In this document: piece by piece, positions 13,673-34,241 of the stretch
Position numbering within the stretch: position 1 is the stretch's first letter
How the letters are laid out: every line of letters starts with the position of its first letter
NCBI RefSeq assembly: GCF_013394775.1
Contig: NZ_JABXYT010000001.1
Span: 1,812,501-1,876,500 of the forward strand
Source: Oribacterium sp. oral taxon 102
GTDB lineage: Bacteria > Bacillota > Clostridia > Lachnospirales > Lachnospiraceae
Reading direction: 5' to 3'
Length of the DNA: 64,000 nucleotides
The notes under the pieces: generated by a model
Told to the model about the DNA's origin: nothing
Seen by the model: the letters and a program-made list of their open reading frames with translations, nothing else
The model's database searches: none
Translations under genes and position numbers: made by a program

Positions 13673-13676
13673 GCCT

Positions 13677-16645: not shown

Positions 16646-16707
16646 GTCTTTTCCCTTTCCGTTTATTGCTTTATATACTCCTTATGGGTATCTTGCTTGT
16701 AATGCAC

Positions 16708-16736
16708 AATATACCCCTGTGGGGTACTATTGTCAA
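16708..16736 (-). promoter_or_regulatory. copA-csoR promoter
   Basis: On the minus strand TTGACA (16731-16736) and TATATT (16708-16713) are separated by exactly 17 bp, giving a leader of about 55 nt before copA. The spacer contains the CsoR-type operator. Confidence 0.85.
16712..16726. promoter_or_regulatory. CsoR operator candidate
   Basis: The perfect 15-bp palindrome TACCCCTGTGGGGTA fills the -10/-35 spacer of the copA promoter. Known CsoR operators are GC-rich palindromes of this TACCCC/GGGGTA type. A weaker, imperfect relative (ATACTCC...GGGTAT) lies at about 16675-16692, just downstream of the transcription start. Binding here would block RNA polymerase until copper releases CsoR. Confidence 0.75.
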
Positions 16737-16866
16737 GCCTTTTTCAAATAGCGGGCACAAAAAAGGACACCGTGAATCTGCGATGCCCCCATACTTATGA
16801 AAACGCTGATTTATTCATGGCTCACGTTCGTTGGCACGCAGCTTCTCCGATTTCATCAGCGTTTCC

Positions 16867-18699
16867 TTATCTTTGCTTCCGCTGGGCATGCTCCTTCGAT
16901 GCCCTCTTCACAACATACATCGCAAGATCCGCCTTCTTCGCCAGCTCCTCCGTCCGCGTTCCCTCCTCCGGATACCAGCTGATGCCGCCGGAGATCCGGA
17001 CGAACTGCCGCCGCCCATCCGGAAGATCTATATAAGCAGAGTACAGCGCATCGCTCATCCGTGCGATGACAGACTCCACCCTCTTCCGATTCCCGTCCTG
17101 CCGGTAAATAAAGACATTGAATTCGTCACCAGAAACGCGGGAATAGAGCCCGTCATTTCCGATTCCGTCCCGGATTGCCTTGGAGGCGGCGCAGATATAA
17201 TGATCCCCGAACGCATGTCCATAGGTGTCATTGATCAGCTTCAGGTTATCGAGATCCATCATCATATATGCACCGATTCCGCCCTCCCGTGCCTTCTCCT
17301 CCAGCAGAATCTTCATTTCCCGGTCGAAGGCGCGGCGGTTATACAGGCCGGTCATGAAGTCATGATCCCGCTCATAGCGGATATTCTCCCGCTCCCTGAG
17401 CAGCCTCCGAGAAAGCTCCTCCAGCGTGTCCGTCATTTCATCCAGCTCCGCTATTCCGGTCTTTTCCAGACGGATGACCTGATCGATCCGCTGCTTCCGA
17501 AGCCCCCGTACAATGGTGAGAATCGGCTTCTGTATCCAGAAAGCAACGCCGACGCTCCCCAACGCGCCGAGCAGCAGCGACAGCAGCAGGGAAACCCCGC
17601 TCGAGTAGAGCAGCCGTCGGGAAAATGCATTGAGACTTCTCCACGGCAGCACCGCGCCGAGCCAGCATTGTCCGTCTCCGTAAATGGAGCTGTTGATGCG
17701 GATCGCCTGCTTATAGACATAGGCATCCGGGAGATTGAAGTAGCTTTTCCAGCCTGTCACCAGACGGCAGCCGCCGCTGTCCGAGACAACGGCAGTATCC
17801 AGCTCCGGCTTCAGGAGATCCGGCTGAAAGGAAAGAAAATACGCGCCGTCCCCATCCTGATCCAGTTCCTGATACGGGAGGTAATTCCCCAGCTGCTCCA
17901 GCAGGATATCGACTCCCAGCACGCCGTAGACCTCACCGCTCTCCAGCCGAAGCGGTACGGAATAGGCGATCGCGATGCGTTCCTCTCCCTCCAGACGATA
18001 GGGCTTACTCCAGTACGCCAGCTCCTGCCAATCCCGATCCCGGTTCTCCAGTGCCGCCTGCATCGGACGGTAGAAAAAATCATAGTAGGGAACCTGGTTG
18101 CTGCCGAACGCGAAGCAGCTGTCCCAGCCGCTGTCTGTGGACATGCTGTAATCCGATACCACGGCGGCCGGAGAGCGTTCCAGCAGAATGTCGTCGTTTC
18201 TGCCGGAGGCTCTGGCATTCGGGTCGAGATCCCGAAGATAGAGCCCCGGCTTATTCCAGTAGTTCCCACTTTCCATGGAGACAGAGAGATCCTCATGATT
18301 CAACACCAGAAAGGCGCCGGTCACGCGGTTTGCCCGCATCATCGTGATCAGATCCTCCGTAGCAGCGCTGAGATAGTCCCTCGCCGTCTCCGAGCTCTGA
18401 TCCAGCGTCATGAGATCGATGCTTCCCTCCGCGAGCATACGCTCCGTCCGCGCGTTGAGCTTCTGCATGGCGTGTCCGAGATTCATCCACTGCCCTGTCA
18501 TTCGGCTCTCCAGCCCGTTCCTGCGCGTCTGCACCCTGCTCTCCGTGATCTCCTCCGCGTTCCCGCGGAGCCGTTTCACGATTCCCTGCCGGTAGAAGCT
18601 CCCAATGAGAACTGCGCCCTCCAGCAAAAGGAGCAGAAAAAGCGGCACGATGATCAGCAGCAGTATCGGTTTTTTCTTGTAGCCCTTCGCTTCTCTCAT
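16867..18699 (-). CDS. Membrane diguanylate cyclase (dCache-like sensor plus GGDEF)
   Basis: A 610-residue protein with a TM near residues 12-35, a large extracellular sensor of the dCache type to about 340, a second TM (LLSLLLGALGSVGVAFW), a HAMP-like helix and a GGDEF domain. The domain shows FMTGLYNRRAFD and MMDLDNLKLINDTYGHAFGD. The active loop reads SGDEF (about residue 523) instead of GGDEF, a change tolerated in some active cyclases. No RxxD inhibitory site is seen upstream of it. The start at ATG 18699 has AAGGA six nt before it. It follows a solute-binding lipoprotein by 21 nt, so the pair may sense a bound ligand and make c-di-GMP. Confidence 0.88.
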   Translation of the reverse strand: MREAKGYKKKPILLLIIVPLFLLLLLEGAVLIGSFYRQGIVKRLRGNAEEITESRVQTRRNGLESRMTGQWMNLGHAMQKLNARTERMLAEGSIDLMTLDQSSETARDYLSAATEDLITMMRANRVTGAFLVLNHEDLSVSMESGNYWNKPGLYLRDLDPNARASGRNDDILLERSPAAVVSDYSMSTDSGWDSCFAFGSNQVPYYDFFYRPMQAALENRDRDWQELAYWSKPYRLEGEERIAIAYSVPLRLESGEVYGVLGVDILLEQLGNYLPYQELDQDGDGAYFLSFQPDLLKPELDTAVVSDSGGCRLVTGWKSYFNLPDAYVYKQAIRINSSIYGDGQCWLGAVLPWRSLNAFSRRLLYSSGVSLLLSLLLGALGSVGVAFWIQKPILTIVRGLRKQRIDQVIRLEKTGIAELDEMTDTLEELSRRLLRERENIRYERDHDFMTGLYNRRAFDREMKILLEEKAREGGIGAYMMMDLDNLKLINDTYGHAFGDHYICAASKAIRDGIGNDGLYSRVSGDEFNVFIYRQDGNRKRVESVIARMSDALYSAYIDLPDGRRQFVRISGGISWYPEEGTRTEELAKKADLAMYVVKRASKEHAQRKQR

Positions 18700-18720
18700 A
18701 TCCATTCCTTACACAGCGGC

Positions 18721-20154
18721 TCAATCCTCGGATGCCGCCAGTCCCTGCAGCTTCTCCGATACGGTATTGTACCAGCGTTCGAAGCTCTCCTCCCCGGTGA
18801 GTCCCGCCTCCGCAGCCTCCATGCTCTGTCCTGCAGCGAGCCGTTCTGAAAGGAGCCTGCGGTTCTCCTCCGCCTGCTCCGACAGAATCCTGCCGACGCC
18901 CTTTCGGATCCGTCCGGCATTCTGCACCGGCGGGGTGGTATACAGCTCGTTGTCCTGTACCGTCTCCAGACCGACCTGTATCGCGTCCGTGAGCCGGATC
19001 TCCGGCACTGCCGCGAGGATCTCTGCCTCGCTTGCCGCCGTCTTCTCCACCGGGAGATATCCGGCATTGACCGCAAAGCGGATATTCTGCGTCCCGCCGG
19101 AGAGCCATTTCAGGAACTCCACTGCCGCCGCTGCCTCCGCCTTGCTTCCCTTCAGCACTGCCATCCCCGCGCCCTGCTGGATCGCGAAATCCATCCCGCC
19201 GGCAAGCTTCGGCGCCGCCAAAACCCTGCATTGAATGGGGTAGCGCTCGGTATCGCTCAGGATGACACGCTTCGGGAAGTAGCTCGCCCCTGCCGAGGAG
19301 CTCACATAGCAAAGCACATTCCCCGTCTTGATATCATCGGAATGATAGCGCGCACCGGATGCGAAATACCCCTTGATATAGGGAATATAGTAGCTCTGCC
19401 AGAGCCGCTCTGCGAGCTGCCGCGGGAAGTTTATCGCGGCGTGATCCCCCTCTCCCGCCGACAGCACATCGATGCCCAGCTGTTTCCCGCTGATATAGAG
19501 GAAATTGGGAATATCATCTCTTCCGAAAAACGCCTTGCCGTCGTTCGGCTCCGGCGTCTTCTCATCCGTCCACCGGTAATACAGCTCCGAAAGCTCCGCG
19601 ATCCCCTCCATGGTCGAGAGCTTCCCGAGCTCCGCGCCCGTCTCTTCCGAGAAACGCTCCCAGTCAGTCTCATTGAGATAGAGTACCTCCGTCGACTTCG
19701 CAAGCGGCAGGATCTTGATGTCCTTCCGGCTGCCGGAGAGCATCCCCTCCGAGAGGTAGCTGTCTACGAAGCGCTCCAGCTCCGCGCCCGTGAAATAGGG
19801 CGCCAGATTCTCCAGCATCCCCCGTTTATCCAGCCGGTTCGCCAGCCCGCTGTAGCACATAATGATATTCGGCAGCTCCCCGCTGACCGGATGGTTCTCC
19901 ATGATCGCGCTGATATCATTCTCCAGATCGAAAAGAGAGCCGGAGCAGACCGCATCGACCTCGATGCCATGCTTCCGTCCTTCCCCCTCATTGTACTGCT
20001 TCAGGGCAGCGTCCAGACTTTTCTTCTGTTCTCCTTTATAATAATGCCAAAGCGTGATTTTTTCCACTGTTCCTGTTTCCCGCCTTCCCGCATGTCCGCA
20101 GGCGACGAGCGCCCCCGACAGCAAAAGAAGCGCGAGCACCCTGATTCTCCTCAT
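18721..20154 (-). CDS. Extracellular solute-binding lipoprotein
   Basis: A 477-residue family 1 (sugar-type) ABC solute-binding protein. The signal peptide ends in the lipobox LVAC with Cys19 as the lipidation site. The mature start ITLWHYYKGEQKKSLDAALKQYNE is typical of this fold. A GGGAGG ribosome site lies seven nt before ATG 20154. No permease or ATPase genes are adjacent; the next gene is a diguanylate cyclase. That suggests a periplasmic-type ligand sensor for the cyclase, not a transporter part. The ligand is unknown. Confidence 0.88.
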   Translation of the reverse strand: MRRIRVLALLLLSGALVACGHAGRRETGTVEKITLWHYYKGEQKKSLDAALKQYNEGEGRKHGIEVDAVCSGSLFDLENDISAIMENHPVSGELPNIIMCYSGLANRLDKRGMLENLAPYFTGAELERFVDSYLSEGMLSGSRKDIKILPLAKSTEVLYLNETDWERFSEETGAELGKLSTMEGIAELSELYYRWTDEKTPEPNDGKAFFGRDDIPNFLYISGKQLGIDVLSAGEGDHAAINFPRQLAERLWQSYYIPYIKGYFASGARYHSDDIKTGNVLCYVSSSAGASYFPKRVILSDTERYPIQCRVLAAPKLAGGMDFAIQQGAGMAVLKGSKAEAAAAVEFLKWLSGGTQNIRFAVNAGYLPVEKTAASEAEILAAVPEIRLTDAIQVGLETVQDNELYTTPPVQNAGRIRKGVGRILSEQAEENRRLLSERLAAGQSMEAAEAGLTGEESFERWYNTVSEKLQGLAASED

Positions 20155-20309: not shown

Positions 20310-20393
20310 GCGGGAATGCTGGAATTGGCAGACAGGCAAGACTAAGGATCTTGTGTCCGATAGGACGTGTGGGTTCAAGTCCCACTTCCCGCA
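20310..20393 (+). tRNA. tRNA-Leu, anticodon AAG
   Basis: An 84-nt class II tRNA. The acceptor GCGGGAA (20310-20316) pairs with TTCCCGC (20386-20392), with A73 at 20393. The anticodon stem CAAGA/TCTTG encloses the loop CTAAGGA, with anticodon AAG at 20344-20346. It has a long variable arm and a GTGGG-TTCAAGT-CCCAC T arm. CCA is not encoded. An A at position 34 is unusual for bacterial leucine tRNA; it may be converted to inosine. Confidence 0.92.
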
Positions 20394-20893: not shown

Positions 20894-23800
20894 CTACGGC
20901 GCGGGAAGGTACCAGTCCCCGGCATAATACAGCGGGATGCGCTGCCCCGTCTCATCCGTAAAGCCCGTCCAGATTTCATACGGGTATGCCTGTCCCGTCA
21001 GCATCCCATCCGCGGGATGGGTATTCTCCGAGGAAACGAGGCTCCGCTGTCCGTCCTGATTCAGATCGCCGAGGCGCGCGGCGTCGAGCGCAGGCAGCTG
21101 CCTCGGATCATTCACAGGCAGGCTGCCGATTCCGGCGAGATCAGGATTCAGCAGAGCGAGATAGCCCGTCCCGTCTGCTGTCACAAGCTGCGAAGCATCT
21201 GAGAGATTCCCGAGTATCCCGCCCTTTTTATAATCTCCCTGACTGCTCGCGGCATTGTCCGAAAGCTTTCCGGCAAAGTAGCAGCTCCGGATCGAGAGAC
21301 GGGTTCCGTCGACCTCTCCGACCAGCCCTCCGGAACGGGACCGGTATGCGGCTCTGTGGTTATAGATCGATGCCGTGCTGAAGCACTCCACGAGCTCCAG
21401 CTGCCCGCCGCTCACCGTTCCGAGCAGTCCGCCGACCTCCTTCCTGCCGATCTGCCCGTAATACTCCCCCTGCTGCTCCGCATCCGGCCCCTCGGGCACG
21501 GCAGTCTTCTCCCCATACTGTCCGTTTACCGTATGCCCTGAGACATAGGACTTCTCGATCTGCGGCGCGGCAGCGCTATCCCCCGCCCTGTGCGCATCCG
21601 CGTTCAGGCGGAGACTTCCGAAAAGCCCGCCGTTGGCTGATGCCCAGCTCCCTGCCGTATAGACCGCGGCGCCCGTGAAGCTGTCCGTCAGCAGAAGCTC
21701 TCGGATATTCGCTGCTGTCCCGACCAGTCCGCCGGCATTGCCCTGCGCCAGCGAAAGCACTCTGGCATCGGGGCTGTTCACTGCGCAGCCCTCGATCCGG
21801 AGGCTGCCGGACACGCTGCCCAGAAGTCCTCCGGCGCTGTCCTCGCTGTTTCCTGTACTCTCCTTTCGGATCCTAAGCCTCGGCGCGGAAAGCGCGCTGT
21901 TTTTCAGAACCGCGCTCTCCGTGATCTTTCCGGCAAGCCCGCCCACATTCTGTATCCCGCTGACCTGCACCTCTCTGTCCGCCGTTACGCGGGTATTCTC
22001 TATGGAAAGCAGACCGGATCTTCCGACCAGAGCCCCGGCAGAGAGGCTTTTGCTCGTGCGGATCGAGATGCGGTCTGCGTGCAATGCAGAATCCGTGATC
22101 TCCACTGTTCCCTCGCTGTACCCCACGAAGCCGCCGCAGTAGTTATCCGCTGCGAGCGTAAGCGCGCTTCCTCCGTTGTCAATGCTGACCTTTCGGATCG
22201 TAAGGCAGCTCCCTGCCTTTACCGTCGCAGCAAGCGCCGCAGCATTCGTCGTGCTGCCGACCGTTATATTCTGAATACGAAGATCGGAAAGCACAAAGTC
22301 CCTCTGTATACTGGCAAAAAGAGCGGTATTGCTGCCGGTATGACTGTATGCTGCAATCTCCAATCCGTAAATCGTATGTCCCTTCCCGTCATAGCGCGCG
22401 AGTCTTCCGTCGATCTCGAGCGGACAGAAAGCGCCCTTTTCCGTCACCGTAGTCCAGCTGTTCCAATGGATGCTGGAGGATTCCTTTTGCTGCTCCATCT
22501 CCTGCACATAGGGATCATACTTATTGTTCAGTCTCACCCTTTCCCCGGGACTTTTGTACCAATTCGGATCGCTCCAGATAATGTCGCAGTCCTGCTCCGC
22601 CTCCACTACCGTAAATTTAGCGAGATCCTCCGGCGGAATCCGGTTCAAAGAGGAGCCGCGTTCGTTCAGATTCTCCAGATGGCGGGAATTGCTGATAATT
22701 GCCTTGTAATGGTTCGGACTGCCGTCCTCCAGCTTTTCCACCCGTTCAAACAGACTGTTATACCTTTCCTCCGGGCTGTACGCAAGCTCCGTTACCTTGT
22801 CATTTTCACTCCCCTTTGCTACGGAAATGAAAATATTTTCTCCGGGATAGAATTTGCCGCCGGTCACTCCATGGAAATCTCCCGCTCTCCGCGAAAGATT
22901 ATCCAGAGAAATACGGAAGCGGTTCGGATCGTCCGCATCCTGCACCATGCTTGTATCCAGCTGCGAAGCCCATCCCACCCTTTCTCCCTTCTCATCCATC
23001 AACCAGCATTTTTTATACTGCGGATTCTTATCGATGTAGAGGTAATAGGTTCTTCCGCTCTGCTCTCCCCGGATCCGAATCGAGAATGCGCTTTCCCGAT
23101 CCTCGGCATTGTAATGCAGCATCAGCCGGTTCCCATTCTCGATCCGAAGCTGCTCCTCCCAATCCCCGTAAAAGGCAATTCTCGTCACCGCATCGGGTCT
23201 TAGGCTCTCGAGCCCTTCTAAATCTCCGCTCCCCCGCTCTTCCCTCGGAAGCTTCGTTCGGTTCCGAAGCGGATAATCCGTCCCGTTCTCATAGCGTCTG
23301 GTAAAACTGCTCAGGCTCTCCCCGGACTTTCCCCGAAGCTCCTGGAAGCCCGTCTTCCCGAACGCGCTCTGCGGAAGGGCTATGCCGCCGCCGACATAGC
23401 CGGCTTGATCGGTATAGCTGATCCCCGTGAGACAGAGGTTGTTCCGGGAAGCGCCGGACAGCGCGCTGTCCGCCCTGCCGAGGAATGCCCCGCGGAGCGC
23501 GGAGCCTGTCCCGAATATCCGTCCGATCACATAATTATCCCTTAGACGAAGCCCTGCCGAAAGCCCCAGACGTCCGACCGCACCGCCGCTGCTGCTCTCA
23601 CCTGTGCTCCCGCTGCTCTTCACGGAGCCCGCGGAAAAGCAGTCCGTCAGCTCCATACAGGCATCGCCGTCCGCCGTGCCGAGCAGTCCGCCGCTGCTGC
23701 GCCGCCCATAGACATTGTAGCCGCCCCTCTTCTCCACATAGATCTCCGAGGCGGAAAGCGCGGCAAGCTTCGGATTCCCTGCCTCTATGCTGCCGGAAAG

Positions 23801-26800
23801 CCCTACCGCTGCACTGTCCTGAAAGACATGCTCTCCGGTGTGCCCGCCGCTGTAACAGCGCAGCAGCGCGGAGGCATTGTCCTTTTTCTGATTTGCAGAG
23901 ACATGCAGCGCCCCGGCAAGCCCGCCGGCACTGCCGCCGTTCCGTGCATCGACATAGACGGATGCCGCTCCATCCTCGATCCGGATACGCACGCCGCTGC
24001 TGCCGTTCCTTCCCCCGACGAGAGATCCGACCAGCCCGCCGGCACTGTCCTCCCCGCCGCGTCCCAGCGTAAGAACAATCGCCTGCTCTCCATAGGCGAG
24101 ACAGCGCTGAAAATGCAGATCCGTCCCCCGGGACACGCCGAGGAAGCCCCCGGCACAGCCGGAAACACCCGCTGCACCGATGCCGTCGTCCGTTTCCGGC
24201 TCCGCGGAGCCTGTCCCTCCCAGTGAAACAACCAGCATTCTGCCCGTCTCAGCGTTTGCCGCCGCGCTTCTCGCCTCGTCGCTCCGGACAATGCAGTCCT
24301 CGAAGCGCAGACTGCTGTTAGAGCTCGAATAGGTATAGCCAACCATTCCGCCGGCATGTCCCTCCGCAAAAATCCTAGGATTTTCCACCAGCACATGGGA
24401 GAGCAGAAGCTGATTGCTGCTCTGATTAAGCCCTGCCAGCGCTCCGGCATGCCGCCCCCGCGCTTCCACATCAAGGAGCGCCAGATTACAGATCTCCAGC
24501 TTCGGCTGTGTGTCTCCCAGATAGCGGAAGAGCCCCATTGCCTCTGATTCCTCTGTCGGAAGTGCCGCCGCATCACCCGCCCCCTCCAGGGCTGCCGATT
24601 GCAGCCTGAGGTCGGAGATCGTGTGGCCGTTGCCGCTGTAGCAGTGCAGGCTCTCATTCCGGATGCCGAAAAAAGCGCCCGCTGCAGAGAGTGCCTTCCC
24701 GTCCCCCGCAGCATAGATCCTGAGTACTGTGCTCGCCGTCAGACCGCGCCGGTTCCTGATCTCGTCAAAGAACCCCGCCCTCCCGTCCTTTGAGACAGCA
24801 TAGAGTGCCTCGATCTGCTCTGCCCATGTTTTCTTCCCGTCCGGAAGCTCCGATACCCTGCCGTCCAGATTCTGCAAATGCCGGAGGCTCGCAATATAGG
24901 CGATTCTCTCCTCCTCCGGTCTGTCCTTCCGCTCATAGAGGGCAGTTCTGTCAACCCGCTCCGAGCAGGCAAAAAGGCTGTTCGTCTCATCCTTATGCAT
25001 ATATTTCCGCGTTCCGAAGAAGCGGCGCAGGTGCGCCGCACTCTCTGCCCCCGTTCCGCTGTCCGGGGCTTCACCGGCCAGCGCCTGATAGAGCGCCGCC
25101 CTTTCGAGCTCGTTCAGCTCTCTCTCATAGCGCTGTTCCCCCGCTTCCTTCTCTCCCGCATAGGCATAGCCGACGAGATCGCTGCCCGGTTCAATAGAGG
25201 AAATGTCCGCAAAATGCCCATCCCCTGTCGTGATATCGTCGAGGAAGACACTGAGCTTCAGGTATCTCTGCTTCTGCTCCCCCTCCCCTGTGATGAGGAC
25301 CTCCGCTCTACTCCGCGGCGCCGCCTTTCCGCTCTGCGCATGCACGGTGCTCTCGGGCTTTCCGCTCCCAAGCGCCTTTACCTCAATCGGATACCGCTCC
25401 TTCTCTGCCTCCTTCGTCCTATCAGACAGCACCAGCGTCAGCTTCTCCTCCTCTGTATCCTCCGAAATCGGTTGGAGAATGAGGGCGGTAAGGATCGCCG
25501 CGTTGTCGAAATAGAGAAGCGTATCCGTGCTCTCCCCATCGATCGCTTCCCAGTCCCCGACATGATGACGCAGGAAATAGGGGAGCGTCCCGCTCCCTGC
25601 GGCGCTTCCCGTCTCCGTATCCAGCAGCTCTGAGATCGTCCTGTAGCTGTATTTCGCACTGTAGCGCGTGCGGAGCCACGAATCATAGGGATAGGCGAGC
25701 CGATCCTCGTTGCCGCTTCTTCCGCTCCCCTGCGCTGTGCCCGAGCCTGCAATCCGTATGTCTCCTCTCGACAGCTCCTCGATGCCGCTCTGTCCCGGCG
25801 CTACCGGCGTTCCTCCCCTCGTATTCCCGAGGATGCCGTACGCCCTGTCAAACCGGAGGTCGCCGACCTGCGCGGCAAGGCTCCCGACATAGTTCCCGTC
25901 TCCCTCCCTCCTGCTTATGCTGATGCCCGCCGCGTAGGCATTCGTGACCGTCCCTCCCTGCGCAGGGTCTATATAGCCCAGCAGGCCGCCCGCATAACGC
26001 CCGCCATACAGTGAGCCTGTCGCATACACAATATGTAAGCGAAACGGAGCGACATCCCGCACCGCACCGAGCAGCCCGCCCGCAGCGCCGGAAAATCCGC
26101 CGCCCGTCTCGGAAGGGGCAATCACATTTACGCGCCCCTGCGCCTTCTCCGGCTCCGTACTTTCCCCCGGCAGCGTATCCCGATACGTCCCGTTCAGGCT
26201 GTGCCCTGCCGTATAGCTCCGCTCTATCGTGAGACTGCCGCCCGCAGCTGCACCGAGCAGTCCGCCCGCAGCGCCTCTCTCCGATCGGACATATACGCTC
26301 GCACTGCTGTTCTCGATACGCAGCGCGCCGCGGCTCTCCCCGAGCAGCCCGCCCGCCTGCCCGTCTGCCGCAGCGATCTCCCGCTGCTCCAGTGCTTCGA
26401 GCGTTTCCTTCCGCTTCCGCCTCGACGCCTCGTCAGTCCCGTCCGGAAGGGTCCCGCCATAGTCCGAGAGATCATAGCTCTTCACGAGCACTGAATCAAC
26501 GGACAGGCTTGCCCCTGTCTCCACGACCCCCGCAAGTGCTCCGGCGTCCGCGATATCCGCCGCCTTTACGGAGAAATTCTCGAGAAGCAGGCGGGAAATC
26601 TCGCAGTCGCTTCGAACTACGCCGAAGAGACCAGCATGCTTCTCCGCGCCCCGGCTCGTGCCCATGTCGATATTTACATCCGAAATCTTATAGAAGCGTC
26701 GCTCATAGCTTTTCTCTCCGCCGTCTCCCGAGCTGTTCCCGCTCTCTCCCGCTCCCCCGGAGAAGTCTGCGTCATAGCGAAGCCGATAGGATAGATTCAG

Positions 26801-28195
26801 CGGCAGGAAGCACCCCGGCTGCATATTGCCCCGCCTGCCGGCAGCAGTGTCGATGCCGAAAAGCTCTGCGTCCTCCGGCGCACTGCTGTCCCACTCCCGC
26901 CGGATCGCCGCATTTTCCGAGAGAAAGCGCGAGAAAGAGAGATCCGCCGTCTGTTGTACCGCTACGCAGGAGACGCCTCCCTCTTTTTTCATAAAATATG
27001 CCGGCAGGCTCTCCGGCGCGAAGCCGGAGATCGTCCCGTCCAGATTCTCGAGGTGGCGGATGTCGGAGACGGTAATGTCCCGCAGCGCCTCCGTTCCGTC
27101 CGCCGTCCGCGATATCCGCCGCGCACCGAAGAGGCTGTTTACCGTGAGGGTCTGACTCCGCGGCAGATTGCTGAGCTTCCCGGATGCGCTCACCTCCGTA
27201 TAGAGCTCGATATCCTCCCCGGGAATCAGCGGCGCACTGCTCTCAATGCCGGGCACGCCGCCGCGGAACAGACTTGCAAAATGAAGGTCTGTCCCGCTTC
27301 CTGTGCTGATATCATCCAGTACCACGAGATATCGGTTGTCAAGCGCCGCCTTGAATACGTTCCGCGCTCTCCGCCCGCCGTCTGCCGTAAGCTCGAGGAT
27401 CTGCTCCGCGCCGCTCTGTACGCCCCGGATGTGAAGCTTCGTCACCGCCGTCCTGCTCTCTCCCGCAGCAGGCGCATTGCTGTCCTCCACGACCGCGTAG
27501 AGCTTCGCGCCGTTTACGAGCCGCAGTCCCGCCGTTCGGAGAAGCTGCCGCTCGACGCCGTCCGCGCTGCCGCCGTAGTAGCCGAGCATCGCGCTGCCGT
27601 TTCCCCCGGGAAACGCCCTCCGCATTTTCCGTGCAGCATCGGAGGCGGGGCTGGCTTTCGCACTTTCCAGCTCCTGCGAAAGTGTGCCGGTGCCGCTAAG
27701 ATCCTGTCCTCCCGTGAAAGCATAGCCGAGCCGCGGCGCGCGGAGCAGGCTGTCTGCGTAGAAAACATCCGTCACTGTCGCCGTCGGGAGGCTGTAGCGG
27801 ATCAGATAGGAGCCGCCTGTCCGGACATAGTCGTCGATCGCGCCGAAGGGAAGCAGCAGCCCGAGGATATCCTCCGCGTTTCCGCTCGTCTCCTCCGTGC
27901 TCACAATCACCGTATATGTCCCGTCCGCTCCGGCATAGCCGAGCCGCGCACTGCCTGCATTTTCCCGGAGCCTGTCGAGGCTGCCGTCCAGCTCGGACAG
28001 TGTCAGGTGGTTCTGCGCCGCGAGGAAAAGCTCCTTCGCGCTCCGTTCCAGCTCCATGAATTTCAGCTCTTTCCGGTACTGCACCACCGCGGTGAAGGAG
28101 AGTCCGGCCAGAATCGACAGCAGCGCGGCCGCCGCCAGCAGCTCCACCAGTGTGAACGCCAGTGCGCTTTTCAGCTTCTTCTCTATCCTGCTCAC
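20894..28195 (-). CDS. Giant 2433-residue protein with a prepilin N-terminus and GLUG-type repeats
   Basis: The N-terminus is a type IV prepilin signal: a short basic leader, SALA, then FTLVELLAAAALLSILAG with Glu at +5. The residue before the cleavage point is Ala, not the usual Gly. After a pilin-like helix come more than 2000 residues rich in Gly, Ser and Ala with many GLUG-type motifs (AGGLVG, VGGLLGTVSGG, SGGLVGEVDG), which suggest a long beta-solenoid. Three anchors recur: LDDISTG-type near residues 293, 985 and 1763, each followed by an SLF and RHLxNL motif near 378, 1105 and 1837. This marks three modules of roughly 700-770 residues. The GTG start has GGGAG seven nt upstream. It is last in the pilus operon and probably a pilus-borne adhesin. 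Confidence 0.85.
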   Translation of the reverse strand: MSRIEKKLKSALAFTLVELLAAAALLSILAGLSFTAVVQYRKELKFMELERSAKELFLAAQNHLTLSELDGSLDRLRENAGSARLGYAGADGTYTVIVSTEETSGNAEDILGLLLPFGAIDDYVRTGGSYLIRYSLPTATVTDVFYADSLLRAPRLGYAFTGGQDLSGTGTLSQELESAKASPASDAARKMRRAFPGGNGSAMLGYYGGSADGVERQLLRTAGLRLVNGAKLYAVVEDSNAPAAGESRTAVTKLHIRGVQSGAEQILELTADGGRRARNVFKAALDNRYLVVLDDISTGSGTDLHFASLFRGGVPGIESSAPLIPGEDIELYTEVSASGKLSNLPRSQTLTVNSLFGARRISRTADGTEALRDITVSDIRHLENLDGTISGFAPESLPAYFMKKEGGVSCVAVQQTADLSFSRFLSENAAIRREWDSSAPEDAELFGIDTAAGRRGNMQPGCFLPLNLSYRLRYDADFSGGAGESGNSSGDGGEKSYERRFYKISDVNIDMGTSRGAEKHAGLFGVVRSDCEISRLLLENFSVKAADIADAGALAGVVETGASLSVDSVLVKSYDLSDYGGTLPDGTDEASRRKRKETLEALEQREIAAADGQAGGLLGESRGALRIENSSASVYVRSERGAAGGLLGAAAGGSLTIERSYTAGHSLNGTYRDTLPGESTEPEKAQGRVNVIAPSETGGGFSGAAGGLLGAVRDVAPFRLHIVYATGSLYGGRYAGGLLGYIDPAQGGTVTNAYAAGISISRREGDGNYVGSLAAQVGDLRFDRAYGILGNTRGGTPVAPGQSGIEELSRGDIRIAGSGTAQGSGRSGNEDRLAYPYDSWLRTRYSAKYSYRTISELLDTETGSAAGSGTLPYFLRHHVGDWEAIDGESTDTLLYFDNAAILTALILQPISEDTEEEKLTLVLSDRTKEAEKERYPIEVKALGSGKPESTVHAQSGKAAPRSRAEVLITGEGEQKQRYLKLSVFLDDITTGDGHFADISSIEPGSDLVGYAYAGEKEAGEQRYERELNELERAALYQALAGEAPDSGTGAESAAHLRRFFGTRKYMHKDETNSLFACSERVDRTALYERKDRPEEERIAYIASLRHLQNLDGRVSELPDGKKTWAEQIEALYAVSKDGRAGFFDEIRNRRGLTASTVLRIYAAGDGKALSAAGAFFGIRNESLHCYSGNGHTISDLRLQSAALEGAGDAAALPTEESEAMGLFRYLGDTQPKLEICNLALLDVEARGRHAGALAGLNQSSNQLLLSHVLVENPRIFAEGHAGGMVGYTYSSSNSSLRFEDCIVRSDEARSAAANAETGRMLVVSLGGTGSAEPETDDGIGAAGVSGCAGGFLGVSRGTDLHFQRCLAYGEQAIVLTLGRGGEDSAGGLVGSLVGGRNGSSGVRIRIEDGAASVYVDARNGGSAGGLAGALHVSANQKKDNASALLRCYSGGHTGEHVFQDSAAVGLSGSIEAGNPKLAALSASEIYVEKRGGYNVYGRRSSGGLLGTADGDACMELTDCFSAGSVKSSGSTGESSSGGAVGRLGLSAGLRLRDNYVIGRIFGTGSALRGAFLGRADSALSGASRNNLCLTGISYTDQAGYVGGGIALPQSAFGKTGFQELRGKSGESLSSFTRRYENGTDYPLRNRTKLPREERGSGDLEGLESLRPDAVTRIAFYGDWEEQLRIENGNRLMLHYNAEDRESAFSIRIRGEQSGRTYYLYIDKNPQYKKCWLMDEKGERVGWASQLDTSMVQDADDPNRFRISLDNLSRRAGDFHGVTGGKFYPGENIFISVAKGSENDKVTELAYSPEERYNSLFERVEKLEDGSPNHYKAIISNSRHLENLNERGSSLNRIPPEDLAKFTVVEAEQDCDIIWSDPNWYKSPGERVRLNNKYDPYVQEMEQQKESSSIHWNSWTTVTEKGAFCPLEIDGRLARYDGKGHTIYGLEIAAYSHTGSNTALFASIQRDFVLSDLRIQNITVGSTTNAAALAATVKAGSCLTIRKVSIDNGGSALTLAADNYCGGFVGYSEGTVEITDSALHADRISIRTSKSLSAGALVGRSGLLSIENTRVTADREVQVSGIQNVGGLAGKITESAVLKNSALSAPRLRIRKESTGNSEDSAGGLLGSVSGSLRIEGCAVNSPDARVLSLAQGNAGGLVGTAANIRELLLTDSFTGAAVYTAGSWASANGGLFGSLRLNADAHRAGDSAAAPQIEKSYVSGHTVNGQYGEKTAVPEGPDAEQQGEYYGQIGRKEVGGLLGTVSGGQLELVECFSTASIYNHRAAYRSRSGGLVGEVDGTRLSIRSCYFAGKLSDNAASSQGDYKKGGILGNLSDASQLVTADGTGYLALLNPDLAGIGSLPVNDPRQLPALDAARLGDLNQDGQRSLVSSENTHPADGMLTGQAYPYEIWTGFTDETGQRIPLYYAGDWYLPAP

Positions 28196-28227: not shown

Positions 28228-28848
28228 TCAGCCTTCCGTCAAAAAAGCACTCCGGTTCACCGGACTGATCTTCACATCCCGAAGCTCCGAGAGCGGCTCT
28301 CCATTCCCGTCATTCCGCCGGTAAACCGTGATCTGTCCGATCGTGAAGCAATTCGCAGACCGCTCGTAGGATACCCCCTCCGTGCCGCTCCCGAGCACCG
28401 CATAAAGCTCCTCCGTCCGGGCGCTCTGTCCTACAAGCAGCAGCTCCCGTTCCCCGAGAATACGGTTTCCCTCCGTCCCTGCCATTCCCAAAGGCGGCGC
28501 GGCAGCCGAATAGCGGAGCGCTATCCCCTTCTGCCCCGGCGCATTTTCGAAACGGCGCTCTCCGCCGTCACTCCCGCTCCGATACCCCAGCAGCACGCCG
28601 TCAGAATCGACTCTCACGTCCTCCGCATAGCGGAGCTCATCCTTCATCCATTCCACCGTCATCGAGAGCAGCAGCTCGCTGTTCGCCTGCAGGCTGATGC
28701 GCTCCAGCGAACGCTGTACAACCGCTGCACCGCCCGCCACCGCAGCCGACATCATCGACACGAGGAGCACCGTCGCGAGCAGCTCCGTCAGCGTGAAACC
28801 ATGCGTATCGCTACAGCGCTTCTGTATTTTCCGAAAGCTCTCTCTCAC
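28228..28848 (-). CDS. Minor pilin-like protein with prepilin cleavage motif
   Basis: A 206-residue protein with the canonical prepilin site THG|FTLTELLATVLLVSMMSAAVAG (shown in pieces: THG, then FTLTELL) and Glu at +5. The mature part has a long N-terminal helix, then a beta-rich C-terminal half with VDSDGVLLGYRSG, like PilW/GspJ-type minor pilins. The GTG start at 28848 has GGGAGG five nt before it. It lies 32 nt before the giant pilin-like gene, and may prime or cap the same fibre. Confidence 0.82.
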   Translation of the reverse strand: MRESFRKIQKRCSDTHGFTLTELLATVLLVSMMSAAVAGGAAVVQRSLERISLQANSELLLSMTVEWMKDELRYAEDVRVDSDGVLLGYRSGSDGGERRFENAPGQKGIALRYSAAAPPLGMAGTEGNRILGERELLLVGQSARTEELYAVLGSGTEGVSYERSANCFTIGQITVYRRNDGNGEPLSELRDVKISPVNRSAFLTEG

Positions 28849-28867: not shown

Positions 28868-29227
28868 CTACCTGTACGTCTTTACCGTCGGAACGGGGAT
28901 TCCGTCTCCCGCTGTCTGATTCGTATCGACCGTCACACTCCGCTCGAACTGCGCGGGACTGCCCTTCTCCGAAATGACAGGGCGCAGGCTCCCGTCGCTG
29001 TCCCGCCTGCTCACGCGGATCGTGTAGCTTTCCTTCCTCCCGCTGCCCTGCTCCAGCGTCTGCGCGCTGTTATAATATGCCGCGAGCTGCCGCCGGCTCC
29101 TCGTCAGCATCCGCTGCGCCGCCAAGACAGCGGTCACGAAGAGCAGCGCCCCCAGTGCGACGACCAACGTCGAAAGGAGCGCCTCTGCGATGCTCTCTCC
29201 GCTCTGCTCCTGCAGTTTCCTCCTCAT
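28868..29227 (-). CDS. Small pilin-like (PilV/GspI-type) protein
   Basis: A 119-residue protein with a prepilin-like start: QSG then ESIAEALLSTLVVALG, giving Gly at -1 and Glu at +5 with Glu, not Phe, at +1. The remainder is a short beta-rich domain. Its ATG lies 3 nt after the stop of the previous gene, so it is made in the same operon. The size and position fit a PilV/GspI-like minor pilin. Confidence 0.75.
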   Translation of the reverse strand: MRRKLQEQSGESIAEALLSTLVVALGALLFVTAVLAAQRMLTRSRRQLAAYYNSAQTLEQGSGRKESYTIRVSRRDSDGSLRPVISEKGSPAQFERSVTVDTNQTAGDGIPVPTVKTYR

Positions 29228-29230: not shown

Positions 29231-30175
29231 CTAGTCTGCCCTTCCTTTCCGGATCCTTCCCACGCCCCAGAGAAGGGATGTCAGCTTTTCCTCCACCGTC
29301 GTGGTCGTCGTGACGCGTACACCGGTTCCGTCCTCCTTCATTCCGCTCAGGTCATCCTCCGTGCGTTCGCTGACAATCCGTCTCTCCACGCGCTTCTCCG
29401 CGGGAATGGAGAGCTGCATGGTATAAGCATTCCTGCTTTTCACGAGCCCGCCGCCCGCATCCGGCTCCGTATTGCAGAGCTCCGTGACGGTAATGCCGCC
29501 GTCCCGCTCGAAGCGAAGCTTCGCCGCAGAAGAGAGCGCGGCATCCGCCGTGCCCGCGGCGCTCTCCCGAAGCAGGAGCAGAAGCTCCGTTTCCCCGCTG
29601 CGAAGACGCGCTGTCCCAAGCTCCGCTGCCCAGAGCCGTTCCGCCGCATCCTCCGAAAGATCCGGAAGATCCGTAAGCTCCGGCACTGCCTCATAGACAA
29701 GCGCTTCCTCCGCCTGTCCTCGCTGCACCATGCCGAGCTCCTTCCGATAGAGTGTGAGCGCCGCGTCCCCGAGGAAGCCCTCCTGCAGGCTCTCTGCGGT
29801 ACTTCCTATGACGCGTTCCGGCGCGGTATAACTGTAGTGCAGTATGCTCTCCTCTGTCTCCGCTGTCTCCCCGGATGCATTCTGCCGGACGGCAGTGCGG
29901 ATTGTCCGCACGGTGGTTCGCGTCTCCCGAAACAGAAGCTCCGTCTCCGAGAAGCATTCATTCAGATAGCGTGCGGCACTCCGCACGCTGTAGCAGCTCT
30001 GGTCGCTCGTCGAGATGCGCCGGATACGTCCTGCCGCAGTGCTCGCCGCCGTCAGTATCACAGAGGCACAGACCGCGCAAAGCACGAAAAACAGCAGCGC
30101 GATCGAGAGCGATGCTCCTGCCTCCGATATGCACTTTTCCCCGATTCGGGACAGCCCCCGCCGTATCTTCCTCAT
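29231..30175 (-). CDS. PilX-like membrane-anchored pilus protein
   Basis: A 314-residue protein with an N-terminal hydrophobic helix (ASLSIALLFFVLCAVCASVIL) after SEAG, then a long soluble domain. The pattern resembles PilX/GspK or TadE-type proteins, but the Glu at +5 is missing, as in GspK-type tip pseudopilins. Its ATG directly abuts the pilO stop, so translation is coupled. An assembly or tip role is an inference from position and architecture. Confidence 0.7.
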   Translation of the reverse strand: MRKIRRGLSRIGEKCISEAGASLSIALLFFVLCAVCASVILTAASTAAGRIRRISTSDQSCYSVRSAARYLNECFSETELLFRETRTTVRTIRTAVRQNASGETAETEESILHYSYTAPERVIGSTAESLQEGFLGDAALTLYRKELGMVQRGQAEEALVYEAVPELTDLPDLSEDAAERLWAAELGTARLRSGETELLLLLRESAAGTADAALSSAAKLRFERDGGITVTELCNTEPDAGGGLVKSRNAYTMQLSIPAEKRVERRIVSERTEDDLSGMKEDGTGVRVTTTTTVEEKLTSLLWGVGRIRKGRAD

Positions 30176-30946
30176 TTACCTGCTCTCCGCCGCATAGCTT
30201 TCCGCATAAGGATTCCTGCCCGTGCCGTTCTGCCCGTAGAGTACGCCGCTCGCCCAGGACTCCGCTGCGGTTTCCAGATCCGACCTCACGATCCCGGAGA
30301 CGTCCGCGTTCGCGAGTCCGCCGCGCTTACCCGGCGCCGTGCCCTCCGCATAGGCAAGCCCCTCCTCCGTATCCGCGTCATAGAGCGTCTCATAGAAAAT
30401 GACGTTCAGGCTGCATCGCACCGCCGCATTTTCCAAAGAGAGCTCTCCCTCCGGAAGCGAAGTATCGTAGCGCCGCCCGCGATCCGCGGAGAGCTCCACA
30501 TTCTGTATCAGACAGCGATATCCCAGATCGTGAATCTGCTGCAGTATCTGCCGCGCGAGCCGATAATCCGCCGCCGTGAAGCTGATTCCGATCTCCCTTC
30601 GCACGACATCCTCGGTCGCCACCGGCTGCCGGAAGCTGAACTGAAAGCTCTCCGCCGCCTGAATGATCTCATTCAGCGCGTTTGCCTCCGCATTGAAATT
30701 GTTGTAGGTCGAAACATAGCCGCTGCCGCCGTCCCTGTTCGCAGCCATCTCCGCCCGCATCGCACGGATACGCTCCGCCCGGCTCTCCTCCGTCCCGATC
30801 TGCTGCTCCAGCTCCGTCGTATCTGCGGCGGCGATCCGCCTCTCCACCGGCTTTTTCACAAACTGATTGTAAAAAAGACAGAGCAGCACGACTGCCAGAA
30901 GCAGCATCAGCAGCTTTTCTCTCTTCGTAAAGGCTCTGCTCAGCAT
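30176..30946 (-). CDS. pilO: PilO-like type IV pilus assembly protein
   Basis: A 256-residue single-pass protein: a short cytosolic start, a TM (LLMLLLAVVLLCLFYNQFV), a coiled-coil segment (about 35-75) and a ferredoxin-like extracellular domain. This order is that of PilO, which pairs with PilN on the outer face of the membrane and links to PilM inside. AGGAGG stands directly before ATG 30946. It follows pilN by 12 nt. The C-terminal 60 residues lie beyond the usual PilO domain and are Gly/Ala/Ser-rich. Confidence 0.82.
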   Translation of the reverse strand: MLSRAFTKREKLLMLLLAVVLLCLFYNQFVKKPVERRIAAADTTELEQQIGTEESRAERIRAMRAEMAANRDGGSGYVSTYNNFNAEANALNEIIQAAESFQFSFRQPVATEDVVRREIGISFTAADYRLARQILQQIHDLGYRCLIQNVELSADRGRRYDTSLPEGELSLENAAVRCSLNVIFYETLYDADTEEGLAYAEGTAPGKRGGLANADVSGIVRSDLETAAESWASGVLYGQNGTGRNPYAESYAAESR

Positions 30947-30958: not shown

Positions 30959-31900
30959 TTATCTCGGATTATAGCCATTGTTCAGACTCGTGATCTCCGT
31001 GCTCTCCTCCGACGGGGTCTGTACATTCGCAGATTTCGTCGGGATCGGCGTCTGCGTCGGCTTCAGTGCAGCCTCTGCCGTGCGCTCTCCGCCGCGCTGT
31101 CCCTCCGGGGAGGCTGCCGCTGTCTCCGGTACGCGTACAGCCTGGTGCATAGCGGTGCTGTCCGTACCCGCCGTACTGCCTGCATTGTCCGCATGACGCT
31201 CCGCCTCCGACGGCACAGCAGCTGCGCGGCTCTCCCGCAGCACCGGCACATAGGCATTCTCTCCGTTCGCCCGCAGCGCCGCATCCAGTACGGCGTCATA
31301 GGAGGGCGTCCCCGCCGCCACCGCGTTCCTCACCTCCTCCTCTGTCCGGAAGCAGACGGTGATCTCCGCGGTGACATAACTGCCTCTGTCCTGCCGCACG
31401 CTCTCTGTCCCGAAGCGATCCTGCTCCACCGTTGCGGCGGTAGAGGCGGTCACATAGCTCACATACTCTGATTCCTCCAGACGTCCGAGGATCTCCGGCA
31501 GGCGCTCCCCGTCCGAGAGCCGCATCGTAATGCTAACGACATTGTCCGTAATGGAGATGCGCTGCACATCACCGCCACCGCCGATACGGGCGTCGATAAC
31601 GTTCAGCATCGTGATGCGATCCTGCCGTGCTCTCTCCGTCTCGTTCAGGTAGCCGTTGCCGTAGTGGCTGTATTCCGCACGAACCTGCGCATAAACGCTG
31701 TTATCCTCCTGCAGCCTCTCCAGCTCCTGCTCTTTCGCATGGTACACTGCCTCCGCCTGATCCGCTCTCCGGAGCGGCTCTGCCACGAAATGCCGGCTGA
31801 AGAAGAAGAGGAAGCCCATAAAAAGCACGAAGACCAGAAGCGTGAACAGTGTCTCTCCCGTATGCCGGTTCTGATACAGAAGATTGATGCCCCGCTTCAT
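30959..31900 (-). CDS. pilN: PilN-like type IV pilus assembly protein
   Basis: A 313-residue protein that begins MKRGINLLYQ, matching the short cytosolic INLLP-type peptide that PilN inserts into PilM. A TM (FTLLVFVLFMGFLFFFS), a coiled coil (about 45-95) and a ferredoxin-like domain follow, then a Pro/Ser/Thr-rich tail of about 90 residues. ATG 31900 is chosen for this conserved start. A TTG at 31954, 6 nt after pilM, is an in-frame alternative that adds 18 basic residues. It lies between pilM and pilO, in the conserved order. Confidence 0.82.
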   Translation of the reverse strand: MKRGINLLYQNRHTGETLFTLLVFVLFMGFLFFFSRHFVAEPLRRADQAEAVYHAKEQELERLQEDNSVYAQVRAEYSHYGNGYLNETERARQDRITMLNVIDARIGGGGDVQRISITDNVVSITMRLSDGERLPEILGRLEESEYVSYVTASTAATVEQDRFGTESVRQDRGSYVTAEITVCFRTEEEVRNAVAAGTPSYDAVLDAALRANGENAYVPVLRESRAAAVPSEAERHADNAGSTAGTDSTAMHQAVRVPETAAASPEGQRGGERTAEAALKPTQTPIPTKSANVQTPSEESTEITSLNNGYNPR

Positions 31901-31960
31901 CGGATATTTCTCTCTGCGCCTGATTCTTCTTTTATAACCCTTTGCTGCTGCCAAGTCCTC

Positions 31961-32998
31961 TTACCCCTCTTCCACCGGTATTTCCGCCGGGATGTCCCCG
32001 CTGTGATCCAACGGAAGGGTCACGCCATATGCCTGTGGCCCCTCCGCTGCCGCCCGCCGATACGGCTCCGGAACAGTTCCCATGAGCTCGGTCAGGAGAC
32101 GCACCGGCAGGCTGATCTGCTCTGTCAGGGCGTGCAGCATCGGTTCGGCATTGACGCCTCCGCCGCAGCAGTAGAGCGCGTCGATCGTATTTTTCGGATT
32201 ATTAAAGCTGTAGAAGTTCAGCACACGCATAAGCTGCACCGCATCTGCTTCGTACAGCTGCCGGAGCTCGTCCGAGCCGAGTATCCCGTCCTGATCCGCC
32301 TCGATGCGGAGCCGTACGATGTGGCTGTCCGAGCCGCTCCGCTCCGAGACCCTCTCCACTACATTCCGCCCGCCGGTTTCCAGCGTGCGGGTCGTCTCAT
32401 ACCAGCCCTCGCTGAAAAAGTGAATCCGCAGCGCCTGCTCTCCCATATCCAGCACCGCATAGTCCTGATCCATCGAAACGGCATTCGCTTCATTATAATG
32501 GCGGAGCAGCCGCTGATAGGCGAGCGGTTCCGGAATCAGTCCCAGCAGATTCAGCTTCGCGAACCTCTGCAGCTCCCTGTATCTGTCAATCAGCTGCTTC
32601 GACATCGCCGCCGCCTGTATGACGAGCGTGCGCTCCGTCCGCTGCAGCACCGAATAATCGTAATAATATTCGCCTGCCTCCTCCGCGATATAGTCGTGAA
32701 ACTCATAGGGAAGATTCGTCCTAAGCTGATCGACCGTCATCAGCGGAAGCTCCAGCTTCCGGAGATAACAGACACTCAGCGGCACCGAAAAAACCGCGTT
32801 TCTGCACCGTATCCCATGCTTCTTCAGAATTTCCCGAAGGAATTCTCCCAGCGCTGCCCATGCCTGTATCACGCCGTTTTGCACGATATTCTCCGGCAGC
32901 GGCTCTAAGAAAAAATCCTGTACCGTGCCGCGGTTCACATAGCAGATCTTCACGCGGTAGTTCCCGATATCAATTCCGAGGCATTGGGATGGCTTCAT
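31961..32998 (-). CDS. pilM: PilM, actin-like type IV pilus assembly ATPase
   Basis: A 345-residue cytosolic protein of the PilM/FtsA actin-like fold. The N-terminal phosphate loop reads CLGIDIGNYRVKICYV, and a second glycine-rich nucleotide loop (ALYCCGGGVNAEPM) lies near residue 275. PilM binds the PilN N-terminus and couples the inner-membrane platform to the pilus motors. AGAGGA lies six nt before ATG 32998. It starts the pilM-N-O-pilin cluster, with a repeat-bearing gap of 281 bp after pilD. Confidence 0.9.
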   Translation of the reverse strand: MKPSQCLGIDIGNYRVKICYVNRGTVQDFFLEPLPENIVQNGVIQAWAALGEFLREILKKHGIRCRNAVFSVPLSVCYLRKLELPLMTVDQLRTNLPYEFHDYIAEEAGEYYYDYSVLQRTERTLVIQAAAMSKQLIDRYRELQRFAKLNLLGLIPEPLAYQRLLRHYNEANAVSMDQDYAVLDMGEQALRIHFFSEGWYETTRTLETGGRNVVERVSERSGSDSHIVRLRIEADQDGILGSDELRQLYEADAVQLMRVLNFYSFNNPKNTIDALYCCGGGVNAEPMLHALTEQISLPVRLLTELMGTVPEPYRRAAAEGPQAYGVTLPLDHSGDIPAEIPVEEG

Positions 32999-33104: not shown

Positions 33105-33198
33105 CGCATTCTGCTTATGATTCAGATTGCTTCATCGCTTCGCGATTCCCGCAATCCCCCTCATTCCGCGCTCCCATGCCGCTACCGCGTCACTTCGC

Positions 33199-33268: not shown

Positions 33269-33279
33269 GACACTGTGAA

Positions 33280-34071
33280 TCATAATCCCCGCAGGTACCA
33301 GCCGACGAACTCCTGTCCGAAGAGAAGGGAGAGGACGAAGGCGAGAGAAATCGCAGGACCGAACGGGATTCGCCGCATCCTGAGGAGTCCTGCCATGGCG
33401 AGCCCCAGAAGACAGCTCAGAATCAGCGCAAAAAGCCCGGCTGCAGGCTTCAGGTACAGTCCCAGCAGAAAAAAAAGCTTCAGGTCTCCGCCGCCCAAGC
33501 TTTCTCTGCCGGACAGATGATCGAAGAGCAGCGAAAGCAGGAGCAGAGAGAGGAAGAGCCCGAAGCCGCCGAGCAGAGAGTACAGCAGCTCTTCCGGGAG
33601 CGTGGGGCAGATCCCCGGCGCGCCGGATGTGAATGGCAGAGTACAGAACCAGATCGCGAGCCCTGTCAGAATCGCCGCATCCGGAATCGTATAGCTTTTC
33701 AGGTCGATGAGGGACAGCTCCAGCAGTACAGCGCAGAGCGCCATATAGCGGAGGGTCAGGACGCTCTGCCCGAAGCGGAGATACAGAAGCAGATAAACCA
33801 CGCCCAGCGCAAGCTCGCAATACAGGCTCTCCGCAGAGATCCGCTTTCCGCAATGCCGGCATCTCCCGCGAAGAAATAGATAGGACAGCACCGGTACGAG
33901 CTCCGGCGCGCCGAGAACATGTCCGCAGCAGCCGCAGCGTGAGCGTCCCCAAAGAACAGTCTCGCCCCTCACAGCGCGTACCGCCATGCAGTCCAGAAAG
34001 CTCCCGAATGCCGCACCGAGAAAAAAAGCGAGAGTGGAAAGATACAGAGTATACGCCGCTTCTATCGTCAT
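33280..34071 (-). CDS. pilD: Prepilin peptidase (A24 family)
   Basis: A 263-residue polytopic aspartic protease that cleaves prepilin leaders and N-methylates the new N-terminus. The two catalytic Asp motifs are visible: DLKSYTIPD after TM3 and GGGDLKLFF. The N-terminal domain keeps FGSFLDCMAVR and the four-Cys zinc site (CGCC and CRHC), as in bifunctional enzymes. ATG 34071 is chosen because GGAGGA lies at normal spacing; 35 upstream in-frame codons are unlikely. It is first in the pilus locus and should process the pilins downstream. Confidence 0.94.
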   Translation of the reverse strand: MTIEAAYTLYLSTLAFFLGAAFGSFLDCMAVRAVRGETVLWGRSRCGCCGHVLGAPELVPVLSYLFLRGRCRHCGKRISAESLYCELALGVVYLLLYLRFGQSVLTLRYMALCAVLLELSLIDLKSYTIPDAAILTGLAIWFCTLPFTSGAPGICPTLPEELLYSLLGGFGLFLSLLLLSLLFDHLSGRESLGGGDLKLFFLLGLYLKPAAGLFALILSCLLGLAMAGLLRMRRIPFGPAISLAFVLSLLFGQEFVGWYLRGL

Positions 34072-34143
34072 TTCCATTCTCCTCCGCGCAATGTCCATAT
34101 TAAAACACGGCGGATATTCCGCCGCCTGACAGGAACTTATACA

Positions 34144-34172
34144 AGTATATAACACCCATGCGGGAATTTCCA
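34144..34172 (-). promoter_or_regulatory. Candidate promoter of the pilus locus
   Basis: On the minus strand TGGAAA (34167-34172) and TATACT (34144-34149) are 17 bp apart. A GGCGGA/TCCGCC hairpin (about 34109-34123) lies in the leader of about 65 nt before pilD. Confidence 0.5.
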
Positions 34173-34241
34173 GCACTGCGACATGCGGTCGTCCTTCCGG
34201 AAAAGGCCCGCTTCCCGTGCAGGGAAACGAGCCTTGGTTCC

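Follow-up and report, generated by a model that had tools for sequence, protein, structure and literature searches.

A giant modular prepilin with three tandem modules in a pil gene run of Oribacterium, a candidate adhesin of the pilus tip

The window, that is, the whole stretch of 64,000 nucleotides from Oribacterium sp. oral taxon 102 that was analysed, carries a run of pilus genes on its minus strand (pilD-M-N-O-K-V-J-giant). The last gene of this run encodes a modular prepilin, which probably acts as a minor pilin displayed at the pilus tip, where its rods would bind a surface or a partner cell. Several observations lead to this reading. The protein has a prepilin start, pilD lies in the same run, and the minor prepilins K, V and J are encoded nearby in 45 of 52 related loci; PilB-, PilT- and PilC-like genes and a major-pilin-like gene are present elsewhere in the genome. 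Solenoid models and a sequence profile point to structures of IgA1 proteases, the triple form of the protein is kept, modular pilins are established in S. sanguinis, and pilin, module and partner protein are fused in one relative.

Results

The giant frame and its prepilin start

The frame runs from 28195 to 20894 on the minus strand (the strand was absent from the earlier note, as were the minor-pilin quartet, the family with its one to five modules and the secreted partner of relatives), and with 2,433 residues it is more than ten times larger than a usual pilin, which confirms the size described there as exceptional (table 1). A spurious frame was considered and rejected, as the match to the family profile extends over the whole minus-strand frame; on the opposite strand, frame 1 is broken by many stops and the other frames reach 456 aa. 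The N-terminus reads MSRIEKKLKSALA before and FTLVELLAAAALL after the predicted cut (in short form, MSRIEKKLKSALA and FTLVE) and has the elements of a class III signal, namely a charged leader, Ala at -1, Phe at +1, a hydrophobic stretch and Glu at +5. This Glu is found in all 52 related loci. The residue at -1 is Gly in 50 of them and Ala in two, and the Ala of the giant is thus rare in the family; according to passages in PMC10191384 and PMC3244431, prepilin peptidases accept cleavage after Gly or Ala, and PilD would cut the giant after Ala13. With this class III-type start and with pilD in the same gene run, the prepilin N-terminus proposed earlier is upheld.

The Pfam family N_methyl scored 16.0 bits with the whole giant as query, below its cut-off of 21.2, and 22.7 bits, above the cut-off, on the giant in the genome search, where it matched three places, namely J, the giant itself and, about 23 kb past the window end, a major-pilin-like gene of 150 aa. 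Solved pilins (e.g. 9egp, E 1.5e-9) match the first-module sequence profile just over the helix start, at positions ~9-46. The AlphaFold2 model of residues 1-890 contains the helix and short strands in the head; no pilin is among the 50 Foldseek matches listed for these residues, and therefore the head fold has no independent confirmation.

Table 1. Features of the pil gene run in the window; positions are those of the window.
Feature	Position	Strand	Description and basis
pilD, prepilin peptidase	33280..34176	minus	298 aa; A24_N_bact 86.9, Peptidase_A24 45.8 bits
pilM	31961..32998	minus	345 aa; PilM_2 67.5 bits
PilN-like	30959..31954	minus	331 aa; no meaningful family match; named by place, between pilM and PilO-like
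PilO-like	30176..30946	minus	256 aa; T2SSM 24.7 bits, below cut-off 27.8; named mainly by place
K-like minor prepilin	29231..30175	minus	314 aa, without Glu+5; alignment; no family match
V (I-like) minor prepilin	28868..29227	minus	119 aa, Glu+5; alignment; no family above cut-off; named by motif and place
J-like minor prepilin	28228..28848	minus	206 aa, Glu+5; IV_pilin_GFxxxE 20.2 bits, above cut-off 16.3; N_methyl 19.2, below cut-off 21.2; alignment
Giant modular prepilin	20894..28195	minus	2,433 aa, GTG start, no internal stop; family profile
Leader	28157..28195	minus	13 residues, charged; Ala at -1; predicted prepilin peptidase cut before Phe14; Glu18 is +5
Pilin domain	27545..28195	minus	residues 1-217 (helix 16-70 and head); profile 151 bits; AlphaFold2 model
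Module 1	25532..27547	minus	residues 217-888 (672 aa): beta-sandwich 217-385, solenoid 386-888; profile, model
Module 2	23159..25531	minus	residues 889-1679 (791 aa): sandwich 897-1110, solenoid 1111-1601; profile
Module 3	20897..23158	minus	residues 1680-2433 (754 aa): sandwich 1680-1843, solenoid 1844-2402; profile, model

The pil gene run and pilus machinery

In the alignment of K-like prepilins, G20 and A21 are invariant and a hydrophobic residue, not Glu, occupies +5 in all ten rows; V and J have Glu+5 in all nine rows of each alignment. In 45 related loci none of the three genes K, V and J is more than 3 kb away from the giant; they lie upstream in 39 of these loci and downstream in six. 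Of the remaining seven loci, L052, L071 and L072 have K, V and J or J alone ~8-9 kb away. Two adjacent T2SSE ATPases (PilB- and PilT-like) followed by a PilC-like gene are located at C1:1253895-1255895 of the genome, the PilT-like and PilC-like genes being named by eye and place. A third T2SSE-type ATPase above the cut-off lies apart from this pair (C1:142346-143173). A homologue of PilY1 was not matched in the genome by a search that also matched none of the 14 control genomes.

Some further elements were noted in and around the run. An Rfam Clostridiales-1 RNA (33118-33282, minus strand, 88.8 bits) is situated between pilD and pilM, and ~68 bases of it recur as a direct repeat at about 33104-33037. 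This RNA was rejected as an element of the pil run, given no match at the gathering score in seven relatives. The run is flanked by genes for a GGDEF protein and a solute-binding protein (16867-20154) and, on its other side, by those for two chemoreceptors (34242-39172), all on the minus strand. A tRNA-Leu (aag) is found on the plus strand at 20310-20393, between the giant and the solute-binding gene.

Internal triplication

The earlier note had proposed that the protein is internally triplicated, and comparison of its pieces agrees with this, the scores of both Smith-Waterman alignment and an independent module profile being far above those of shuffled sequences. Modules 1 and 3 align with a Smith-Waterman score of 234 (shuffled mean 50, sd 6.5, maximum 76 in 100 shuffles), modules 2 and 3 with 233 (shuffled mean 53, sd 9.5) and modules 1 and 2 with 160 (shuffled mean 62, sd 9.7). 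The profile, built from 22 single-module relatives with the giant left out, gives 279.6, 138.9 and 211.9 bits for modules 1, 2 and 3, the best of 150 shuffles (92 of which got any score) reaching 1.7. Pairwise identity between the modules is 26-29% over 410-431 columns. When BLASTP is run with the whole giant against itself, the full-length match alone is listed; the repeat emerges on comparing cut pieces.

The series of three anchors on which the proposal had been based recurs for the most part. NSLF is located at residues 353, 1072 and 1813, and RHLxNL at residues 380, 1105 and 1838, that is, in all three modules; a pattern search recovers the LDDISTG-type anchor in only two copies (294 and 986), the third being degenerate (LDNLSRRAG). 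The modules also have GG..G turns and a GH(S/T) stretch in common, in the same order. The three modules are diverged, ancient copies of one module.

Predicted fold of the modules

Each module consists of an FN3-like beta-sandwich and a GLUG-type beta-solenoid, as predicted by AlphaFold2 models that cover residues 1-890 and module 3, and by sequence profile for module 2. The beta-solenoid body that had been suspected is thus supported by models in two of the three modules. The model of residues 1-890 (48 relatives aligned; mean pLDDT 82.1, pTM 0.77) shows helix 16-70, the head, a beta-rich domain at 223-376 and a solenoid from ~403, and that of module 3, from residue 1681 (44 module rows), reaches pLDDT 87.4 and pTM 0.92. 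Foldseek against the PDB gave two matches at E < 0.001 for residues 1-890, 3n6z (4.9e-7) and 7uvk (4e-4), and two for module 3, 7uvl (2.6e-4) and 7uvk (4.3e-4), with 3n6z at 0.05. Of these structures 7uvk and 7uvl are IgA1 proteases and 3n6z a putative one. The first-module sequence profile matches 7uvl (E 1.2e-9) and 3n6z (8e-8), both in the solenoid, and FN3 domains match weakly in Foldseek (e.g. 5j7c, E 0.23). The Foldseek TM-scores are low (0.22-0.25 by query), so the likeness to IgA1 proteases is limited to the solenoid part and does not extend to whole proteins.

Pfam GLUG matches module 3 alone with 30.9 bits (cut-off 20.5), where no single stretch passes by itself, and 20 of 45 module rows; it had no match across the genome, nor on the whole giant. 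IPR011493, named in a PNAS paper, is taken to be the GLUG entry; if so, the architecture of prepilin and GLUG is already listed there, as an M26 peptidase. The GG..G turns of module 3 are spaced 32-37 residues apart. It is estimated that ~495 solenoid residues form roughly 15 turns per module, some 7 nm at the usual rise, and that three modules with their sandwiches would give an arm of some 30 nm.

Family and module number

Among the 61 genomes searched, the own genome included, 15 match, ten of these being among the 16 other members of the genus. The profile search matches 14 of the 17 genus genomes, three of them by a generic pilin start alone. Three of the 16 other genus genomes are thus without any match, three have the generic pilin start only (two 73-77% complete), and in the member G005 nothing larger than a pilin-sized frame (311 aa) is present; it follows that the genus does not depend on the giant. 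At E 1e-12, matches are found in 15 of 299 Lachnospiraceae genomes and in 12 of 295 genomes of the order, with the window's genome counted. An earlier scan with the full giant as query confirmed none of 26 stretches. A pattern scan of named genomes, based on one peptide pattern and a family alignment, confirmed 52 of 201 stretches, which constitute the 52 related loci; these are not independent, since several genomes are common with the 61-genome search and near copies occur (L081/L083, L087-L091). The loci are labelled, among others, Lachnospiraceae, Oscillospiraceae, Erysipelotrichaceae, Anaerovoracaceae and two Actinomycetota.

Complete frames were obtained for 45 of the 52 loci: 22 have 700-915 aa, eight 1366-1625 and 12 2024-2543, and three are short or broken (93, 454 and 635 aa). 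Three sandwich copies are detected by profile in the window and in six relatives (L068, L069, L077, L078, L080, L082); in a number of the remaining long members the profile detects the later copies weakly or not at all, and the module number is taken from their length. One frame (L060), when completed, has 4,537 aa and five YGDW-type module ends. By profile and length, the family spans one to five modules per pilin.

In a tree of 35 modules, for which ten of the 22 single ones were used, module 2 of the window groups with Oribacterium module 2 (100/95) and module 3 with Oribacterium module 3 (100/98), plus a module of C. fessum. This grouping indicates that the triple form has been kept. In L069 the last two modules were duplicated separately (100/99). 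The tree program flags the window's modules for their long branches and unusual composition, which makes their finer placing unsure.

A secreted partner in relatives

In ten of the 21 single-module loci with a readable flank (22 are complete), the pilin is followed by a second, separate frame of 1,976 aa or more, which starts -22 to +254 nt from the pilin end (L047, L049, L053, L055, L056, L062, L066, L073, L076, L084). Most partner frames are cut by the locus end; the three complete ones have 4,945, 4,965 and 5,099 aa, and LPxTG is absent in all three. SpaA was found in both partners scanned, and DUF7601, and Listeria-Bacteroides repeats or a weak beta-helix, in one each. The partners look secreted, their signal peptides having been judged by eye. 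In L058 (read in L097), the pilin, the module and a partner-type protein form one frame of 5,725 aa, which resembles the partners from residue ~811 on and is matched by all ten of them; it comes from a single metagenome assembly, in which an assembly fault is not wholly excluded. A next-door partner is found beside none of the 19 larger pilins with a readable flank, on the basis of the lengths of the following frames in a hand-made list, with frames of 1,037-1,349 aa near L052, L061 and L071 outside the comparison. Within Oribacterium, NK2B42 (L073) has one module and a partner, and five relatives have three modules and no partner.

Two side observations concern the neighbours of these pilins. 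In L101, tandem genes with near-identical starts (2957-17854 and from 18606 on) lie downstream of a single-module pilin, the first being a partner-type giant and the second entering masked sequence. The 1,349-aa frame of L052 begins 6 nt past the giant with a hydrophobic start, and its ending resembles that of the giant.

Discussion

The partners raise the question whether the modules form a docking stalk that holds a separate secreted protein, as TcpB and CofB hold TcpF and CofJ, the client having been lost or being encoded elsewhere in the case of the window. The likeness, a minor pilin together with a secreted protein, applies to the relatives of the giant only, and the known pairs are Gram-negative, type IVb and trimeric (PMC9565799). 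The kinship of all ten partners with the fused protein, their confinement to single-module loci and the missing LPxTG are consistent with docking. Against this, no partner gene is present beside the window's giant, BLASTP of the giant against the partners gave no match, and a search of the genome with residues 1-3,000 of one partner gave a single match of 185 residues (E 1e-7, C1:209027-209515). Moreover, 11 of the 21 single-module loci have no next-door partner, and the association between partner and module size (Fisher p 5e-4) ignores kinship, the partner label changing six times on the pilin tree, which means few independent cases. For the giant of the window docking is therefore considered unlikely, and display of binding rods at the tip is preferred.

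Fold and gene content bring three further readings into consideration. By analogy with ComZ of Thermus thermophilus, a DNA-binding beta-solenoid pilin for which a place at the tip beside another minor pilin has been argued (PMC6561018), the giant might be a DNA receptor for natural transformation, and a ComEC-type Competence family is present in the genome. This family also matches ten of the 14 control genomes and so carries little weight. In addition, the modules are net acidic (-16, -19 and -20), like the seven relatives for which the charge of the whole protein was computed, and they are appended after residue 217 and triplicated, whereas ComZ (554 aa) has one ~380-residue solenoid inside the pilin sheet; such a receptor function is quite improbable. 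A pseudopilus-like piston that drives out other proteins in the fashion of type II secretion could be suggested by the HIJK minor pilins, which are common to that system (PMC10191384), but the genome encodes a PilT-like ATPase, its major-pilin-like gene is a separate one and no client was identified, which leaves a piston with very little probability. Least credible of all is an M26-family IgA1 surface protease presented on the pilus. The nearest solved folds are indeed IgA1 proteases, with which the giant shares the beta-helix fold and GLUG-type repeats (PMC7695701), and Peptidase_M26_N matches weakly in three of the 45 module rows; however, the giant lacks the HExxH zinc motif and LPxTG, and the Pfam scan of the whole giant listed no peptidase domain.

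The pilus to which the giant would belong is probably a retractile Gram-positive type IV pilus, with the giant as a member of a tip-forming quartet of minor pilins. The K subunit, which lacks Glu+5, would cap the tip in a starting complex completed by V, J and the giant, below which PilB/PilC and PilM-N-O would insert the major pilin; PilT would retract the fibre. The pilin head of the giant would carry its three rod-like modules in series, each a sandwich with a ~15-turn solenoid, and the resulting ~30-nm arm may project past the pilus and bind a surface or a partner cell. This arrangement resembles the HIJK tip complex of type IVa pili and type II secretion, as described in PMC10191384, in having a K-like subunit without Glu+5, I- and J-like subunits with Glu+5 and a fourth pilin; here the fourth subunit would be the giant, which may take the H place, as judged from its position in the run. 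Of the two roles suggested in the earlier note, an adhesin at the pilus is plausible, and a fibre of its own is unsupported, given that the giant sits with minor pilins and that separate major-pilin-like and PilB/PilT/PilC-like genes exist.

In S. sanguinis, pilins that bear a grafted adhesive module are established (PMC8179133, PMC10191384). PilB and PilC of that species are likewise Gram-positive minor pilins in which a short pilin part bears a grafted module that is not specific to pili, whereas the family described here has an FN3-like sandwich and a GLUG-type solenoid, in up to five copies and 700-4,537 aa; it far exceeds the 860 residues of the most extreme multi-domain modular pilin named in the survey of Raynaud et al. 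2021 (PMC8179133, passages used). The modular pilin is thus a known kind, of which the giant family, by its size, tandem copy number and partner, would be a variant. In our literature search, no description was found of such large tandem-module pilins with a partner, nor of modular pilins together with Lachnospiraceae. The matches for type IV pili, pilin and Lachnospiraceae contained no GLUG, and 'GLUG motif' was also absent among the pilin matches listed; 'giant proteins' were absent among the matches listed for type IV pili or prepilin in Clostridia, and nothing relevant was among those listed for Oribacterium with pili.

To our knowledge, the tips of pili of Gram-positive gut bacteria have been little studied. 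Pili of such bacteria have been linked to substrate adhesion, as with cellulose in Ruminococcus (PMC3672088). More tentatively, and with the balance tilted somewhat against it, the family might represent a distinct Gram-positive tip-display system in which the fourth pilin beside K, V and J sets the length of the arm by its one to five modules, and in which lineages either lengthen the arm or hold, with one module, an unanchored secreted protein of ~5,000 residues, once fused to it. Two aspects are highlighted that are directly testable: since the rod occurs in one to five copies per pilin, the family offers a length series made by nature, and the fusion in one relative suggests a secreted giant as the pilin's client. 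Other giant prepilins of 3,192 and 2,835 aa occur in the same bacterial family (L039, 928-10506; L038, 8060-16567); the NSLF anchor is absent from them and GG..G turns are present, and they are located near pilin-like or pilus genes.
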